Positions 1 through 7,404 of a stretch of 64,000 nucleotides of DNA are shown one piece after another. The stretch is from Brenneria rubrifaciens (GTDB taxonomy: Bacteria; Pseudomonadota; Gammaproteobacteria; Enterobacterales; Enterobacteriaceae). Position numbers and translations under genes: made by a program. A model generated the notes under the pieces. It was not told the DNA's origin, did not search any database, and saw only the letters and a list, made by a program, of their open reading frames with translations. Every line of letters starts with the position of its first letter. The stretch's first letter is position 1. The DNA is taken from contig NZ_CP034035.1 of NCBI RefSeq assembly GCF_005484945.1, positions 1,054,001 through 1,118,000 on the forward strand, in the 5' to 3' direction.

Positions 1-140
1 GTACGTTTAATGCCTTAGTTTAATTGATAACACGCGGTAGAGAACGCGTTTTTACCAGACAGTGTGTACTAAGTTGAAGGTATTAACATTGAGCTATGTC
101 TGTTAAGAAGACCGAAGGTATTTATATCCATTCGGACTAG

Positions 141-536
141 TTAGCTGTTGGTGTAATTATCGTAGCTCTCTTTTAGCGTTTCCCAGTGTGTAATTAGCGT
201 ATCCGTTGTGGCAATAAGATTGTTGTGCGGACCGTCGTGATTGGGATTCAATTTGCCTTTTTTTAACTGAGAAAGGATCGCGTCAGCGTTTTCGGTTGCA
301 TTAAGGGTTTGCTTCTTAAGTCCTGAGGCATCGGTCGCTAATTGCTGAATAATCGGGTCGGCGGATTGGGTCGCCCGTTTAGTGGACAGTAACGACATGG
401 AATACTTTAACTCGTTTAACTTATTCAGGTTTTCGTTGATTCTATCAATGGTCCCCTGCGCTTTCGGCGTGGAGCCGAAAGCGCTTTGGGAAGAACCGAA
501 GGAGAATGAGTTTACGTTAATATGAGGTATTTTCAT
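141..536 (-). CDS. Hypothetical small protein, possibly secreted
   Basis: Unrecognised 131-residue protein. The ATG is preceded by GAAGG about ten bases upstream, so translation is plausible. The first 25 or so residues are rich in Ser, Asn, Phe and Gly and do not form a Sec signal peptide. The rest reads as amphipathic helices rich in Leu, Ile, Asn, Thr and Lys, with no Cys and a single Trp near the end. The DNA is more AT-rich than the neighbouring operon, which hints at horizontal acquisition. The composition resembles small helical type III secretion substrates or chaperone clients, but I see no Hrp-box and no secretion genes in the window, so that is only a guess. It is transcribed away from the ABC operon at 910. 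Confidence 0.5.
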   Translation of the reverse strand: MKIPHINVNSFSFGSSQSAFGSTPKAQGTIDRINENLNKLNELKYSMSLLSTKRATQSADPIIQQLATDASGLKKQTLNATENADAILSQLKKGKLNPNHDGPHNNLIATTDTLITHWETLKESYDNYTNS

Positions 537-909
537 TAGTTCTAGCCTTCAACATTTGTTAGTTAATAGTTTTTTAAAAAATAATACCTAAGCGGCAATG
601 TAACGATCCATGAGTGTCACAAAGCCGTCGGCGGTTCCCTATCACAAAGACCGCGTTATCTCTTACCAGGCCAATCATGAAACCGTCACGGAACGGGTTT
701 TCAGCTCATCGTATCGATCCCTCCCGTTCAAACTCAGCCAGTGAAAAGCGGAAAAGCCGAGAAATTTTGAAAAGTTTGTTGTATTAGACAAGTTTGGAAG
801 GTTTTTGCTACGGTCAATCGACTTCATTAATCCATGGTCCCTGTATCCGGCGATGCGCCCGCGCTGAGGCAAAGGGGTATCTGGAGATGCTGTTAATCAG
901 GAGTATGCG
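537..909. other. Intergenic region upstream of the ABC/amidase operon
   Basis: AT-rich divergent region between the hypothetical gene (start 536) and the ABC operon (start 910). It must carry promoters for both. Two direct copies of AAGTTTG lie at 772-778 and 790-796, 18 bp apart, with a related inverted CAAACT near 729-734. These are candidate operator half-sites but unproven. A 65-codon reverse-strand frame at 675-872 has no recognisable features and is not called. No other element is seen. Confidence 0.4.
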
Positions 910-1746
910 ATGAGCCTTTCACCAGCCATAAAAGAAGCACTACCTAACGATCCCGCTTTGCCTCCGGTCGCTATCTCGATGAAAGGGGTGAAAAAGCAGT
1001 TTCTGGATCACGATGAAAACGTCGTGGAGGTGATTAAAGACATCTCGATTGATATTTATCATCGTGAGTTTATCAGTATCGTCGGCCCCAGCGGATGTGG
1101 AAAGACCACCATGTTTAACATGATTGCCGGGCTGCTGACGCCTACCTCCGGTGATATTCAGGTATTTGACCAATACTACGCCATTCCCAAGAAAGGGCGG
1201 GTGGGTTACATGCTGCAAAAGGATCTGCTGTTTCCCTGGCGCACCATCCTCGATAACGTCTGCCTGGGACTGGAAATCAGTGAAGTGCCGAAGAAAGAAC
1301 GTCATGAACGCGCTATGGCCTACCTGCATAAATACGGTTTGGGGGATTTCGCCCACGCTTATCCCGCCACGCTTTCCGGCGGGATGCGCCAGAGGGCGGC
1401 GCTGATCCGTACGCTGGTGATCGATCCAGACATCATTCTGCTTGATGAGCCGTTCTCCGCGCTGGATTACCAGACCCGGCTGGTGCTGGAAGAAGAGATC
1501 CTGTCGATCCTTAATGAATTCGGCAAAACGGTGGTGCTGATCACGCACGATATCGGCGAGGCCATTTCCATGTCCGATCGCATCGTGGTGATGTCGCAGC
1601 GACCCACCTGGAATAAAAAAACCTATGAAGTCGGTCTGGCCAAGCAACACGGCTCTACCATGGGGGCCCGTAAAGATGCGCGCTATCAACAATTTTTCGA
1701 TGCGATATGGGGCGATATGGACATTCAACTGGGAGGTCGGCCATGA
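910..1746 (+). CDS. ABC transporter ATPase, nitrate/sulfonate/taurine type
   Basis: Cytoplasmic ATPase of an importer (278 aa), of the SsuB/TauB/ThiZ kind. Visible motifs: Walker A GPSGCGKTT at residues 59-67, Q-loop around 103, signature LSGGMRQR at 155-162, Walker B IILLDEP at 175-181, and the switch His in ITHD at 211-214. All residues needed for ATP hydrolysis are present. The start is set by AGGAG six bases before the ATG. It is the first gene of a four-gene operon; its stop overlaps the permease start as ATGA. The family imports small organic anions or heteroaromatics, and sequence alone does not fix the substrate. The amidase downstream suggests an amide. Confidence 0.93.
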   Translation: MSLSPAIKEALPNDPALPPVAISMKGVKKQFLDHDENVVEVIKDISIDIYHREFISIVGPSGCGKTTMFNMIAGLLTPTSGDIQVFDQYYAIPKKGRVGYMLQKDLLFPWRTILDNVCLGLEISEVPKKERHERAMAYLHKYGLGDFAHAYPATLSGGMRQRAALIRTLVIDPDIILLDEPFSALDYQTRLVLEEEILSILNEFGKTVVLITHDIGEAISMSDRIVVMSQRPTWNKKTYEVGLAKQHGSTMGARKDARYQQFFDAIWGDMDIQLGGRP

Positions 1747-2588
1747 GTACGCCTGTTACCGCCGCGGATAAAAACCGTTCCCGTCTGTCGGCCCTAAGCC
1801 GTCGGCGCAAAAAGAAATTTAAGTCGCTGCTGAAAGATAATGGCTGGCGGGCGCTGATCCTCATCTTGTTGGTGGCGCTGTGGCAATACGGCGTAGACAC
1901 CGGCGTGGTTAATGCTTTTCTAATGGGCTCTCCGGCGGGGATCTGGCAGGAGTTTGTCCGGTTGCTGGCCAACGGCGAACTGCTGACCAATGCCTATGTC
2001 ACGGTCTACGCCACGGTGACGGGTTTTGTGCTGGGCAGCCTGTTGGGGTCGCTGTCCGGGCTGCTGCTGTGGTATTCACCCACGCTGGCGCGCATCCTCG
2101 ATCCGTTTTTCATCGCCCTGAACGGACTGCCGAAAATCGCGCTGGCGCCCATCATTATCATCTGGTTCGGCTCCGGGTTATTTTCCAAAATCGCGCTGGC
2201 ATTTATCGCGACTTATATCGTAGCGCTGTTGTCGGCGTGGCAGGGAACGCACCAGATTGATGATAATCAGGTGAATTTGATGCGTTCGCTGGGGGCTGAT
2301 AAGAATCAGATTTTCCGCAAAGTGGTGATCCCGTCCACACTGCCGTGGATCATCTCAGCCTTCCGCCTGAACATCGGTTTCGCGCTGATTGCCGATATCG
2401 GCGGGGAATTTATCTCCTCTGATTATGGCTTGGGCAAAATGATTTTCGTCGCCGGAAACCTGTTCAACCTCAATGTGGTGTGGGTCGGCGTTTTCACCCT
2501 GCTGTTTGTCGCTATCGTGCTCTATCTGCTGGTTATCCAACTACAGCGCTGGCTGCTGCCCTGGGAACGCCAGTCCGTTAATCGTTAG
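1743..2588 (+). CDS. ABC transporter permease, SsuC/TauC type
   Basis: Inner-membrane permease (281 aa from the chosen start) with a basic N-terminus (RSRLSALSRRRKKKF) and about six hydrophobic segments. The cytoplasmic coupling loop that contacts the ATPase is visible near the sequence SLGADKNQIFRKVVIPSTLP, typical of the taurine/sulfonate/nitrate family. An upstream in-frame ATG at 1707 is rejected because the ATG at 1743 forms the classical ATGA overlap with the ATPase stop and has GGAGG just before it. It pairs with the ATPase at 910 and the binding protein at 2625. Confidence 0.92.
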   Translation: MSTPVTAADKNRSRLSALSRRRKKKFKSLLKDNGWRALILILLVALWQYGVDTGVVNAFLMGSPAGIWQEFVRLLANGELLTNAYVTVYATVTGFVLGSLLGSLSGLLLWYSPTLARILDPFFIALNGLPKIALAPIIIIWFGSGLFSKIALAFIATYIVALLSAWQGTHQIDDNQVNLMRSLGADKNQIFRKVVIPSTLPWIISAFRLNIGFALIADIGGEFISSDYGLGKMIFVAGNLFNLNVVWVGVFTLLFVAIVLYLLVIQLQRWLLPWERQSVNR

Positions 2589-2624
2589 TTATGTCGTTAA
2601 CCCATTAATCGAAGGAATTCACAG

Positions 2625-3596
2625 ATGAAAAAAATTGTTTCATGGCTGTGTGCCGCCGTATTTACCCTGGGCTCTGCCGGCGGCCTTGCCGCGGATGGCA
2701 AGCGCGATCGCGTGTTGGTGACGGAGGCATTTCACTCTCTGCTGTATCTGCCGGTTTATGTGGCGAAACATCAGGGAATGTTTGCCCGGAATCAGATTGA
2801 TGTGACCACCATCCGTTCGGCTGGCTCCGGCCCTACCGCGCTGGCGGCGGTGCTGTCCGGCGAGGCGCAGTTCTCGGTTCACGGTCCTGAACATGTGGGG
2901 TTCGCTCAGCAGAAAGGCGGCCAAGCCAAAGCCGTCAGCGCCGTCGCCAATAGTGCGCCGGTGTGGATACTGGCCAAGCCGGGTTTTACCTTTAATTCAC
3001 CCGCCGATCTGAAAGGCAAACGTGTGGTATCGGGGTTGGCGCCCGGCACGTCCAATACGTTGCTGCTGCGTCTATTGCAACAACAGGGTCTGGACCCCAA
3101 GAAGGACGTCACCATCGATGAGGTGCAGAACGGCGCCGAACTGGGACCGTTGCTGGCAGGAAGAGCGGACGCGGCGGTGGTCTATGAGCCTCAGGCGGAT
3201 CAGGGCGTGGGGCAGGGGTTGAAAGTGATTTACGATTTTACCCGCGATTACCCTGAGTATGCGTTCTCCACCATCAATACCTCGGAGAAAATCATCACCG
3301 ACAATCCGCAGTTGGTTGCGCGCTTCGTCAAATCCATCAACGAATCTCTGGCCTTTATTCACCAGAACCCGGATGAAGCGAAAAAAGTGGCCCGTCTGGA
3401 GTTTGCCGCTCTGGATAGCAAAGTGGTGGATGCCGCAGTGCAGCGTATGATCGACAGTAATGTCTATCCCGCTAACGCGGTCATTTCGCCTTTGGCGTTC
3501 ACCACCGCGATCGATATTCAGAAATTCGTCGGCAATATCACTCAGGATATGCCTTATGAACAGATTGTTGATGGTCAGTTCGCCAGTAAGCCCTGA
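2625..3596 (+). CDS. NMT1/ThiY-like periplasmic substrate-binding protein
   Basis: 323-residue binding protein of the importer. The N-terminus is a Sec signal peptide (MKKIVSW, hydrophobic core, cleavage probably after an Ala near residue 22). The mature part follows the NMT1/SsuA-like two-lobe pattern: LLYLPVYVAKHQGMF early, then SGPTALAAVLSGEAQF, DLKGKRVV and GRADAAVVYEP. Family members bind sulfonates, nitrate, pyrimidines, riboflavin and similar small molecules, and specificity cannot be read from these motifs. It has AAGGA upstream of the ATG and lies 36 bases after the permease and 15 before the amidase, all in one apparent transcript. Confidence 0.92.
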   Translation: MKKIVSWLCAAVFTLGSAGGLAADGKRDRVLVTEAFHSLLYLPVYVAKHQGMFARNQIDVTTIRSAGSGPTALAAVLSGEAQFSVHGPEHVGFAQQKGGQAKAVSAVANSAPVWILAKPGFTFNSPADLKGKRVVSGLAPGTSNTLLLRLLQQQGLDPKKDVTIDEVQNGAELGPLLAGRADAAVVYEPQADQGVGQGLKVIYDFTRDYPEYAFSTINTSEKIITDNPQLVARFVKSINESLAFIHQNPDEAKKVARLEFAALDSKVVDAAVQRMIDSNVYPANAVISPLAFTTAIDIQKFVGNITQDMPYEQIVDGQFASKP

Positions 3597-3611
3597 TAAG
3601 GATCGGCTTTT

Positions 3612-4982
3612 ATGAAAAATGTATTGGATCAGTCACCTTTTGCCACCCTTGCCGCCACCCGGCGGCTGTTGGCGGCGCGCAAAGTTTCGCCGGGTGAGTT
3701 ACTGAGTCATTTTCTGGCGCGTATCGATGAGCGGGATACGCACATCAAGGCCTGGCGCTATCTCGACCGCGACGGCGCTAAACAGCGGGCGGCGGAACTG
3801 GACCGGCAGATGGCGGCCATTGCCTGCAAGCCGGCATTGTTTGGCATTCCCTATGGCGCCAAAGATATCTTCCATACGCGCGGATTGCCCACCGAGGGCG
3901 GTTCCAAAGTCTGTCAGGGCAGGGTTTCCACCGAGAACGCCAGCGTTATCGACCGGCTGGATGAGGCGGGGGCGCTATTGCTGGGTAAACTGACCACAAC
4001 GGAGTTCGCCAATTTAGGTACGCCGCCCGAAACCGGCAACGCCTGGAATCCGCAGCATACGCCAGGTGGTTCAAGCAGCGGTTCCGCGGCGGCGCTTGGC
4101 GCGCGCATGGCGCTGATGACGCTGGGTACGCAGACGGCCGGATCGCTGTCCCGTCCGGCGGCGTTTAACGGGGTCACGGTGCTCAAAGCCACCTATGGAC
4201 GCATCGGCAAAGCCGGGGTAATTCCCGCCAGTTGGTCGCTGGATCACGTTGGCGCCTTTACTCATACCGTTGAAGATGCTGTGCTGGTGTACAATACGCT
4301 GGCAGGCCCGGACCCGCGAGATGAAACCACCCATACGTTGCCTTATACGCCGCTGCAACTGAGGGAAAAGCATGACTATACCGTCGGTATCGTGGAGCAT
4401 CCGTGGTTTGACAATGTGGATGAGGAGATCGGCGTTGCCTGCCAGCAGGCGATGGACCAGCTGGCCGGACACGGCGTCCGGCTGAGGCGAATCAAGCTGC
4501 CGGAGAGCTTTGATGCAGCTTGTCAGGCTCATCAGATTGTGATGCAGGCCGAGTGTGCCTCCTATCACCGCGAGGCATTCCTGCAAACGCCGACGCTGTT
4601 TGGGGACTATTTACAGGAATTTCTGCCGCAGGGTCTGGCTATTTCCGCCCATGAGTATCTGCAAGCCCAGCAGATCCGTGCTCGCTACCGGGCGGAGCTG
4701 GCGGCACGGTTTGACGCAGCGGATATCCTGATGACGCCGGCCACGCCGACGCTGGCGCCTTATAGTCTGGCGCGCACCGGCTCGCCGGCGTTTAATATGC
4801 CGTTCACCAATGCCGGCGTACCGACGTTGACGATGCCGGTCGGTTTTTCCCGTTCGGGATTGCCGATGGGCATGCAGTGGGTAGCCCGGCACGGGAATGA
4901 GCAGGCGCTGGCGGATCTGGGGTTATACTATCAGCAGATGACTGACTGGCATGCCTGTTTACCGCCGGTCTGTCGGCCATGA
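3612..4982 (+). CDS. Amidase-signature family hydrolase
   Basis: 456-residue cytoplasmic amide hydrolase. The catalytic Lys-cisSer-Ser triad of the amidase-signature family is intact: Lys84 in YGAKDIF, cis-Ser154 in the glycine/serine-rich stretch GGSSSGSAAA, and nucleophile Ser178 in TAGSLSRPAA. The spacing (70 and 24 residues) matches the family. The enzyme splits a C-N amide bond; GatA has the same fold, but the gene is not beside gatB/gatC and clusters with an importer, so a catabolic role on the imported compound is inferred. A GGAT ribosome site precedes the ATG. Two terminators follow, closing the operon before the regulator gene. Substrate unknown. Confidence 0.9.
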   Translation: MKNVLDQSPFATLAATRRLLAARKVSPGELLSHFLARIDERDTHIKAWRYLDRDGAKQRAAELDRQMAAIACKPALFGIPYGAKDIFHTRGLPTEGGSKVCQGRVSTENASVIDRLDEAGALLLGKLTTTEFANLGTPPETGNAWNPQHTPGGSSSGSAAALGARMALMTLGTQTAGSLSRPAAFNGVTVLKATYGRIGKAGVIPASWSLDHVGAFTHTVEDAVLVYNTLAGPDPRDETTHTLPYTPLQLREKHDYTVGIVEHPWFDNVDEEIGVACQQAMDQLAGHGVRLRRIKLPESFDAACQAHQIVMQAECASYHREAFLQTPTLFGDYLQEFLPQGLAISAHEYLQAQQIRARYRAELAARFDAADILMTPATPTLAPYSLARTGSPAFNMPFTNAGVPTLTMPVGFSRSGLPMGMQWVARHGNEQALADLGLYYQQMTDWHACLPPVCRP

Positions 4983-5026
4983 AAACAGAGTGCGTCCGCC
5001 GGTGCAGGCCAATCCGGTGATGCGTT

Positions 5027-5061
5027 GCAGGCGGCGTTGAAAAGCGCGCCTGCGTTTTTTT
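5027..5061 (+). terminator. Terminator 1 of the ABC/amidase operon
   Basis: Stem GCAGGCG (5027-5033) pairs with CGCCTGC (5047-5053), with further GC pairing inside, followed by seven T at 5055-5061. It is a strong intrinsic terminator. It is also one end of the 72-bp intergenic repeat described at 5027-5133. Confidence 0.85.
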
Positions 5062-5097
5062 ATGACGGGCTATCCTGCCCGTCACCCTGCGGGCCGC

Positions 5098-5133
5098 CGC
5101 AGGCGGCGTTGAAAAACGCGCCTGCGTTTTTTT
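5098..5133 (+). terminator. Terminator 2 of the ABC/amidase operon
   Basis: Stem CGCAGGCG (5098-5105) pairs with CGCCTGCG (5119-5126), followed by seven T (5127-5133). Almost identical to terminator 1 and 72 bp downstream. It separates the operon from the regulator gene at 5188. Confidence 0.85.
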
Positions 5134-5187
5134 AAGTGCACGGTCGTTGCGCGCGGTTTTTTTTCCGGTTAACCAGGATGGCGAGTT

Positions 5188-5985
5188 ATGTACGATAAAT
5201 TATTGACGGTTTCCGATGCGGCGAAAATGCTGGGGATCTCCGCCAGCACCTTGAGGCGTTTGGAGGAAAATGGCGAGGTGAAAACCTATGGCCTTAAAGT
5301 GGTTTACACTCCCGGCGGTCAGCGCCGCTATCTGGCCGATGAAATTCAGCGTATTTATTCACAGACCGGGTTTGCCAGTAAAATTGGTTTTGGCTCGAAA
5401 GCGGCGGTCCTGATACGGGATGTGACCTATGCCTTTATGGATTCGGGTTCCACGCTGGCGATCAATACGTCGTTTGATAAAACCGCGCTGCGTCAGTTGC
5501 TGGAATTGGCCAGACAACATCAATCGCCGACGATATTCAGCCGCACGATTTATCAGGAAGATCACCCCTTTTCCCGCATGTGGGGGAAAAAGTTCTCCTC
5601 TATCACGGTGCTGGCGGAGGATGCCTACCTTAATCAGATCGATGCCGCGTTGGAGGGCATCGCGTTCGATCGGATGCAATCCACCTGCTATATCTCCGAT
5701 TTGCACGGTCACGAACTGGCGACGTGGCTAAAGCGGCAAGGCGTGGATACGGTTATTCTGGCGGGGGTGACCGCCAGCGGCAGCCTGCGCGCCACGGCGA
5801 TCGAGGCGTTCCAGGAGGGGTTCCACGTGGTACTGCCGCGTGAGGTGACCGGTGATAGAAGTCAGTCCGCATTGGACTTTACGCTGTTGGATCTAAACGC
5901 CCGTTATGCGGATGTGCTTGGCATTGACGAGGTATTCGGCTGGCTGGCCGAACAGCCGGTTGCGGCGGAGCTGGTGCAGGCGTAA
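5188..5985 (+). CDS. MerR-type HTH fused to an inactive isochorismatase-like domain
   Basis: 265 residues with two parts. Residues 5-58 are a MerR/excisionase-type winged helix (LTVSDAAKMLGISASTLRRLEENG, then PGGQRRYL). Residues 70-250 follow the isochorismatase/N-carbamoylsarcosine amidohydrolase fold: AAVLIRDVTYAFMDSG, then VDTVILAGVTASGSLRATAIEAF, then VVLPREVTGDRS. In active enzymes the triad is Asp, Lys and Cys. Asp78 is kept, but the Cys of the GVTTSGCVRAT motif is Ser199 here and the Lys position reads Asp161 or Arg162. Catalysis as a cysteine hydrolase is therefore unlikely, and the domain more probably binds a ligand. Inferred role: transcription regulator of the adjacent importer/amidase genes, sensing an amide or acid related to their substrate. 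It starts after two terminators, so it has its own promoter. Confidence 0.78.
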   Translation: MYDKLLTVSDAAKMLGISASTLRRLEENGEVKTYGLKVVYTPGGQRRYLADEIQRIYSQTGFASKIGFGSKAAVLIRDVTYAFMDSGSTLAINTSFDKTALRQLLELARQHQSPTIFSRTIYQEDHPFSRMWGKKFSSITVLAEDAYLNQIDAALEGIAFDRMQSTCYISDLHGHELATWLKRQGVDTVILAGVTASGSLRATAIEAFQEGFHVVLPREVTGDRSQSALDFTLLDLNARYADVLGIDEVFGWLAEQPVAAELVQA

Positions 5986-6008
5986 CCCCCTCGCGGCAAC
6001 GCGCCGCA

Positions 6009-6269
6009 TCACATATCCAGTTCAATATCGTTCACCGGCATGCAGCAGCAGGGCAGAATTTCCCCCTGCTGAATACAGGCCAGCGGTGCCTGACGGTATA
6101 CCACTTTCCCCTTGAGCAAGCGGATGCGGCATGTACCGCAATAGCCGGAACGGCACTGATATTCCACGCTCATGCGCCGGGATTCCAGCGCATCCAGCAG
6201 CGACGCATGTTGGTCGGAGCAGCTAAACTGCGCACCGGACGTGCGCAGCGTGATGATTGATGCCGTCAT
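6009..6269 (-). CDS. yfaE: Ferredoxin YfaE, radical maintenance for ribonucleotide reductase
   Basis: 86-residue [2Fe-2S] ferredoxin that in E. coli reduces NrdB during assembly and repair of the diferric-tyrosyl cofactor. The plant-type ferredoxin cysteines are visible: C-x4-C-x2-C in CRSGYCGTC, and the fourth in LPCC near the C-terminus. A longer frame begins at 6305, but the ATG at 6269 lies four bases after the nrdB stop and gives the family's usual length. Last gene of the nrdA-nrdB-yfaE unit; it converges on the MerR-like regulator with a 23-base gap. Confidence 0.93.
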   Translation of the reverse strand: MTASIITLRTSGAQFSCSDQHASLLDALESRRMSVEYQCRSGYCGTCRIRLLKGKVVYRQAPLACIQQGEILPCCCMPVNDIELDM

Positions 6270-6273
6270 GTGG

Positions 6274-7404
6274 TTAGAGTTGGAAATCGCTGAGGTCATC
6301 GGCATTCATTTCAGAATCGATCTGACCCACCAGATAAGAGCTGACCTCGACTTCCTGCGGCGCGACCTGGACGTTATCGGAAACCAGCCAGGCGTTGATC
6401 CACGGAATCGGGTTGGTGCGCGTTTCAAACGGCAGCGGCAGACCGACGGCCTGCATGCGGATATTGGTAATATATTCCACGTACTGGCACAGGATATCTT
6501 TGTTCAGGCCAATCATGGAACCCTCGCGAAACAGGTAATCCGCCCACTCTTTCTCCTGCTGTGCGGCGAGCACGAACAGGTCATAGCTCTCTTGATGGCA
6601 CTCTTCGGCAATCCGGGCCATTTCCGGGTCGTCATGACCCGCGCGCATCAGGTTCAGCATATGCTGGGTGCCGGTCAGATGCAGCGCTTCATCGCGGGCG
6701 ATCAGCTTGATGATTTTGGCATTCCCTTCCATCAGTTCGCGTTCGGCAAAGGCGAATGAACAGGCAAAGCTGACGTAGAAGCGAATTGCTTCCAGCGCGT
6801 TAACGCTCATCAGGCACAGGTACAGTTTCTTTTTCAGCTCATACAGGTTAACGGAAACGGTTTTGCCATTGACCTGATGCGTCCCTTCTCCCAGCAGGTG
6901 GTAGTAGCTGGTCATCTCGATAAGCGAGTCGTAGTAACCGGAAATGTCTTTAGCGCGCCTCAGAATCTCTTCATTGGTCACGATGTCGTCAAACACCAGT
7001 GACGGATCGTTGACGATGTTGCGGATAATGTGAGTGTAGGAACGCGAGTGAATGGTTTCTGAAAATGCCCAGGTTTCCACCCAGGTTTCCAATTCTGGAA
7101 TGGAGATCAGCGGCAGCAGCGCAACGTTCGGGCTGCGGCCCTGAATAGAGTCCAGCAGCGTCTGATACTTAAGATTGCTGATGAAAATATGCTTTTCGTG
7201 ATCGGTTAATGCCTGATAGTCGATACGATCGCGGGAGACGTCCACTTCTTCCGGGCGCCAGAAGAAGGAGAGTTGTTTCTCAATGAGTTTCTCAAAAATT
7301 TCGTATTTTTGCTGATCGAAACGGGCAACGTTAACCGACTGGCCGAAGAACATCGGCTCAAGCAATTGGTCGTTTTTATTCTGTGAAAAAGTGGTGTAGG
7401 CCAT
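6274..7404 (-). CDS. nrdB: Ribonucleoside-diphosphate reductase class Ia, beta subunit
   Basis: 376 residues, the usual length. R2 subunit carrying the diiron centre and the stable tyrosyl radical; pairs with NrdA to make dNDPs aerobically in the cytoplasm. Conserved helices with iron ligands are visible ([16 protein letters not shown] early, [15 protein letters not shown] with the radical Tyr near 123, and the [15 protein letters not shown] stretch). The C-terminal tail DDLSDFQL is the peptide that docks into NrdA. It lies 124 bases after nrdA, and the gap is filled by a palindromic repeat; yfaE follows at four bases. Confidence 0.98.

Follow-up and report, generated by a model that had tools for sequence, protein, structure and literature searches.

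Closest described systems

The nearest solved relatives of the fusion protein described here, by sequence and by structure, are the maleamate amidohydrolases NicF and Ami (PDB 3ot4, 3uao, 4l07, 4l08) and N-carbamoylsarcosine amidohydrolase (1nba, 26st). The fusion shares with them the fold, the active-site aspartate and, at 15 of 36 non-enteric loci, the pathway neighbourhood, but it lacks the catalytic lysine and cysteine and carries an N-terminal winged helix-turn-helix (HTH). It differs from NicF/Ami also in that the intact enzyme is a separate nearby gene at 27 of the 36 non-enteric fusion loci.

Among MerR-like regulators, BldC occupies direct repeats of 9 bp in head-to-tail fashion, a mode that its authors describe as to their knowledge unique to BldC among those that use the winged HTH alone (PMC5859096). 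The fusion resembles BldC in its short MerR-like winged HTH without a coiled coil and in its 9-bp direct repeats (found here statistically, with 10-bp repeats nearly as frequent), but BldC has no effector domain where the fusion has one derived from an enzyme, and the HTH of the fusion scores under the NCBIfam cut-off for BldC. Tetramers of CarH bind tandem 11-bp direct repeats (PMC9304148). Here, too, a MerR-type winged HTH is joined to an oligomerising sensor domain and tandem direct repeats are used, but the sensor of CarH is a B12 photoreceptor domain, its repeats are of 11 bp with another consensus, and its similarity to the HTH of the window protein is marginal (E 0.036). The best precedent in principle is NrtR/AraR (PMC4666351), in which an enzyme fold with an impaired catalytic motif serves as the ligand-binding domain of a winged-HTH regulator. 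The combination of a winged HTH with a catalytically broken enzyme fold is the same, and the fusion here is pathway-linked; NrtR/AraR differs in being a homodimer with an N-terminal Nudix fold and a C-terminal winged HTH. No isochorismatase-type transcription regulator was recognized by title and start of abstract among the literature matches listed, which is weak evidence, subscription papers being mostly outside that set. The principle is known from NrtR; the isochorismatase fold in a regulatory role did not appear among those matches, and the putative direct-repeat operator is of an unusual type.

Domains and active site of the fusion protein

The window, a stretch of 64,000 nucleotides of the Brenneria rubrifaciens genome, encodes on its forward strand (5188..5985) a protein of 265 amino acids, P0001, in which a BldC/MerR-like winged HTH precedes a maleamate-amidase-type isochorismatase fold. 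The preliminary description had proposed a MerR-like winged helix at residues 5-58, and Pfam MerR does match the N-terminus above its cut-off (30.7 bits, cut-off 28.2), the DNA-binding part being placed at residues 5-56 (5200..5355, forward strand). The NCBIfam model HTH_BldC gives 23.8 bits, far under its cut-off of 77. The wing motif TPGGQRRY is invariant in 30 aligned fusions (alignment A2).

The remainder of the protein (about residues 58-255) was assigned by sequence and structure comparison to the branch of NicF/Ami and N-carbamoylsarcosine amidase, in agreement with the fold originally suggested. The best matches of the predicted structure (pLDDT 90) are the maleamate amidases Ami (including Ami C149A with maleate) and NicF, and CSHase; the VIA-align match list consists of the amidase domain throughout and is uninformative about the HTH. 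The model lacks a long coiled-coil dimerisation helix: a helix at residues 50-59 is followed by the core strand at 72-77, with a pLDDT of 64 at the joint. Judging by this model and by the direct repeats described below, the DNA-binding part looks more like that of BldC or CarH than like that of a classical MerR dimer.

Compared with the Asp-Lys-Cys triad of maleamate amidohydrolase, the active site of P0001 is incomplete, as had been noticed from the sequence: the acidic residue Asp78 (codon 5419..5421) is kept, Thr166 (5683..5685) sits where the catalytic lysine would be, and Ser199 (5782..5784) sits where the nucleophilic cysteine would be, all on the forward strand. Laboratory Cys-to-Ser mutants of sister enzymes hold uncut substrate according to their PDB titles (BiuH C169S with biuret, 6xjm; TrtA C162S with triuret, 6xje), and since P0001 has the same Cys-to-Ser exchange, it is plausible that it holds a ligand without cleaving it. 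The B. rubrifaciens genome contains three more isochorismatase-like matches, none with an HTH (G000:C1:377783-378328, 1685749-1686291 and 1976814-1977068).

Loss of catalytic residues across the family

A first round of protein search found 83 homologues and a profile search gave 248 matches, 120 of which were examined. A contig scan found 74 loci, and a whole or partial fusion is encoded at 45 of these (L001-L045), which come mostly from Bacillota and Enterobacterales and in a few cases from Salinicola or Burkholderiales; L046-L074 matched mainly the HTH alone and were excluded from every count. The residue survey comprised 200 rows (proteins and locus open reading frames of at least 170 amino acids, copies included). 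Alignment flagged an HTH in 154 of these rows, and the wing motif is present in 152 of them (all but P0021 and P0128), representing 146 distinct sequences, of which 145 keep the aspartate. The lysine position is occupied by threonine in 103 and serine in 35, and the cysteine position by serine in 124 and alanine in 13. Whether both residues are lost in all HTH-fused members had been posed as a check: this holds for lysine (kept in 0 of 146) and fails for cysteine (kept in 7 of 146), in searches that were seeded with fusions and that active HTH fusions of other origin could escape.

Several apparent exceptions were discarded. P0128, a candidate HTH fusion with intact lysine and cysteine, has an N-terminus without the HTH motif. 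As to candidate unfused rows without lysine, P0119, P0121 and L040_7 possess the wing motif and resemble cut fusions; P0065, P0127 and L039_11 are short and resemble fusion fragments; and L025_18 is a distant isochorismatase that aligns poorly.

When 106 fused rows were compared with 24 active NicF-type rows (thinned at 85% identity), identity with the active rows was 0.00 at Lys166 and 0.07 at Cys199 versus 0.99-1.00 at Asp78, Lys135, Asp187, Thr188, Gly193, Asp223 and Arg224. Some other positions are also poorly kept in fused rows, including 169 and 173-175 behind the catalytic lysine. A loss that falls most heavily on catalysis is the expected appearance of a pocket that binds without cutting, though such a pattern is not proof of binding. 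By sequence, Lys135 is not a catalytic lysine that has moved, because the 24 active rows carry both it and the catalytic lysine; an active hydrolase with a relocated lysine was rejected on this ground.

Gene neighbourhoods

In the window, the fusion gene follows genes for an ABC transporter ATPase (910..1746, the first gene of the cluster, with all of its nearest NCBIfam models below cut-off), a permease (1707..2588, BPD_transp_1, TauC/SsuC-like below cut-off), a substrate-binding protein (2625..3596, NMT1/THI5-like, with weak nearest PDB relatives) and an amidase-signature hydrolase (3612..4982, PF01425, nearest PDB relatives GatA and malonamidase E2), all on the forward strand. The same four genes lie upstream of the fusion gene at all ten enteric loci (the window and L001-L009), and the Salinicola locus L042 has the identical ABC-amidase set downstream of the fusion. 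Between the amidase and fusion genes of the window stand two 36-bp copies of a terminator-like hairpin with a T tail, recognized by eye (5027-5062 and 5099-5134, 97% identical, 72 bp apart); the regulator gene may need its own promoter. No Rfam match was found in window positions 1-6400. In two Symbiopectobacterium symbionts (L006:5600-10828 and L007:6300-10831) the ABC-amidase cluster seems to be decaying: several of its genes, and at L006 the fusion gene as well, are split or shortened.

Outside the enteric bacteria the linked genes differ. NicX- and NicD-like genes were found within the fetched flanks at 15 of 36 non-enteric loci, 13 of which also have a maleate-isomerase-like gene, and an unfused isochorismatase with intact Asp-Lys-Cys is encoded in the flanks of 27 of the 36, including 14 of the 15 NicX/NicD loci (a tally that includes distant isochorismatases, as at L040). 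Identities were checked against PDB entries at one representative locus, L023, with matches of the NicX-like protein to 2,5-dihydroxypyridine dioxygenase (7cn3, E 6e-96), of the maleate isomerase to 4fq7 (E 5e-86) and of the unfused isochorismatase to 26st (E 1.4e-55); NicD was named there from its position and from a match to alpha/beta hydrolases, and at other loci the NicX, NicD and isomerase names derive from BLAST clustering with L023. At 6 of 36 loci, three of them with an ABC permease, a polysaccharide-deacetylase-like gene is a neighbour, and the fusions there belong to another clade; 11 loci have no tabulated neighbour type. These neighbours were called as simple longest open reading frames, a procedure that missed or cut some fusion genes (e.g. 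at L033 and L034). Maleate isomerase had no match in the B. rubrifaciens genome in a search run without a positive control, and because of this the ligand of the window protein may not be maleate-like.

Direct repeats near the fusion genes

Tandem direct repeats with a period of 9-10 bp, resembling GACAAGTTT or GGTAAGTTT, lie near fusion genes in both phyla. The 9-bp repeat block became visible when the DNA upstream of the enteric clusters was aligned. In the window, the putative operator (759..804, forward strand) lies about 105 bp upstream of the ABC start codon and comprises GAGAAATTT (759-767, then one extra base), GAAAAGTTT (769-777), a spacer unit GTTGTATTA (778-786), GACAAGTTT (787-795) and GGAAGGTTT (796-804). 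With positions 787-804 as query and at most 3 mismatches allowed, a single place was found in the 4.03-Mb genome; a backwards control pattern found 3 chance places. The sequence GACAAGTTTG occurs upstream of the cluster at all ten enteric loci, twice at four of them (L001, L004, L005 and L008).

A matrix built from the enteric units, typed by eye, was run on the 36 other loci, with scoring limited to intergenic sequence no more than 350 bp from the fusion gene (the targets at L010-L045 assume a 750-bp gene). The mean best score was 11.7 at period 9, 9.8 at 10, 10.0 at 19, 9.4 at 20 and about 6-8 elsewhere, and none of 150 column-permuted matrices reached 11.7 (maximum 9.3). The top pair of the whole locus lay beside the fusion gene at 14 of 36 loci, with a control mean of 2.4 and one of the 150 permuted matrices also reaching 14. 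Independently of any motif, near-identical 7-mers were in excess at lag 9 (120 versus 32.4±7.9 in shuffled DNA), lag 10 (100 versus 30.8±6.3), lag 19 (71 versus 35.4±7.3) and, less so, lag 20 (53 versus 35.2±8.2), with the remaining lags close to or under the shuffled level; the density at lag 9 was 8.2 per kb of target versus 2.6 per kb of other intergenic DNA at the same loci. Both the matrix and the motif-free tests were designed after repeats had been noticed at some of these loci, and because of their common descent the 36 loci do not count as independent events.

A lag-9 or lag-10 pair is present in the target at 29 of 36 non-enteric loci and was not found there at seven (L020, L021, L022, L025, L028, L029 and L030); L025 has a pair that is masked by a called open reading frame, and the arrays of L021 and L028 lie elsewhere. 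At the NicX/NicD loci, units flank the fusion gene on both sides in 8 of 15 and follow it in 12 of 15, mostly ahead of the following operon. Units face a diverging neighbour gene at L034, L037, L038 and L041 and also, within the start of the called open reading frame, at L030; L027 has one each way. Such placement would suit a local regulator that in part controls its own gene. A search for sigma-70 promoters around the arrays gave no consistent candidate. Additional arrays within nic-type clusters (L017:15639; L021:16289 and 19418) stand ahead of a second c8-cluster gene (HpaB-like by eye), a gene resembling FAD monooxygenases and one for a DctP-like binding protein, and a local regulon of several promoters is possible.

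Proposed function and its alternatives

We estimate at roughly 70% the probability that P0001 is a one-component regulator, in which a dead amidase senses an amide or acid of the linked pathway and BldC-like heads bind direct repeats. Most probably the protein acts as a sensor and turns a small operon for uptake and breakdown on or off, a reading that follows from the frequent proximity of its relatives to an intact enzyme and to matching repeated DNA sites. A paralogue of NicF/Ami-type maleamate amidohydrolase would have been joined behind a short BldC-like winged helix, with loss of the catalytic lysine and, in most members, of the cysteine, and with retention of the fold and the aspartate, as sequence and model indicate. 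The amidase-like core, probably oligomeric like its enzyme relatives, would present several DNA-binding heads, which may bind the statistically enriched tandem repeats that lie close to the linked genes with a period of 9-10 bp. The dead pocket would take up a pathway amide or the acid derived from it, without hydrolysis, and DNA binding would change, adjusting expression of uptake and breakdown. For clusters of the nicotinate/hydroxypyridine type, maleamate and maleate are candidate ligands; for the window, the candidate is an analogous amide that the ABC transporter would import and the amidase would cut.

The amidase-like part might serve oligomerisation alone and bind no ligand, which would make the fusion a constitutive architectural protein or repressor in the manner of BldC, but this appears unlikely. 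BldC functions through its winged HTH alone, and the poor conservation of positions 169 and 173-175 would suit a scaffold, but the nearly perfect conservation of Asp78, Lys135, Asp223 and Arg224 alongside the loss of two catalytic residues argues for a pocket, as does a chemistry of the linked pathways that would suit it. A bifunctional or slow enzyme, hydrolysing an amide through Ser199 as nucleophile or with a substitute lysine while also regulating, is quite improbable: conservation extends to Asp78 and much of the core, and cysteine persists in 7 of the 146 distinct wing-bearing rows, but lysine is absent from all 146, alanine has replaced cysteine in 13, Lys135 offers no replacement given its presence beside the catalytic lysine in the 24 active rows, and intact enzymes are encoded nearby at 27 of the 36 non-enteric loci.

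The above-threshold Pfam MerR match would also accord with a classical MerR-type protein that binds as a symmetric dimer to a palindrome lying between -35 and -10 and has the isochorismatase domain respond to the effector. This arrangement is very improbable, and was rejected as first choice, because the enriched sites are direct repeats of 9-10 bp and because in the model no long dimerisation helix separates helix 50-59 from the core, although confidence at this joint is low. The binding of repeats by BldC and CarH and the lack of a coiled coil in the model instead favour an oligomeric dead amidase with its heads on direct repeats.

Origin and significance of the fusion

In a tree of 146 rows, made by a short search with the three catalytic columns removed (and differing from the 146 wing-bearing sequences in that near-copies above 85% identity, short rows and the duplicate of the window protein were dropped), the fused rows constitute one group of 109 (106 flagged as fused and 3 apparent cut fusions; SH-aLRT 90), which is suggestive of one fusion event, without being decisive. 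The tree requires two state changes of lysine and five of cysteine, and clades that lack lysine but keep cysteine (L029, L045, P0073-P0076 and relatives) agree with loss of lysine first and of cysteine later. Enteric and Salinicola members nest within a mainly Bacillota group (supports 90-91), and this nesting suggests lateral transfer. When 295 genomes of the order were searched (E 1e-40, first-look candidates scored in part), nine matched, and only the B. rubrifaciens protein itself matched at full length; a TPGGQRRY-like wing is encoded at its own locus, and in no frame at any of the nine loci from the eight other genomes.

On balance we lean toward a single origin of the family from a copy of a maleamate amidase and a BldC-like head, with lysine lost at or near the fusion and cysteine later and repeatedly, with an oligomer that sets the heads head to tail on 9-10-bp repeats, and with a similar operator from Bacillota to Gammaproteobacteria while the pathway changed. 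If the proposed function is correct, isochorismatase joins the enzyme folds recruited as bacterial sensors, and the fusion is a sensor-bearing user of 9-bp direct repeats. The order of steps would then be open to examination, with the parent-type enzyme often still in the same cluster and with lineages that keep cysteine without lysine, and candidate regulators and operator sites would be suggested for maleamate-pathway operons of Bacillota.

The fusions at L029:9986-10762 and L045:1648-2424, which lack lysine and keep cysteine, lie near IclR-like and dehydrogenase-like genes (by eye) and not in nic-type clusters; they are possible intermediates between enzyme and sensor. Several HTH fusions without lysine and cysteine (P0016, P0025, P0031 and others) are named maleamate amidohydrolase in their source and are likely misannotated, a caution that applies to several catalytically broken fusions to which a source gives either that name or nicotinamidase-related amidase.
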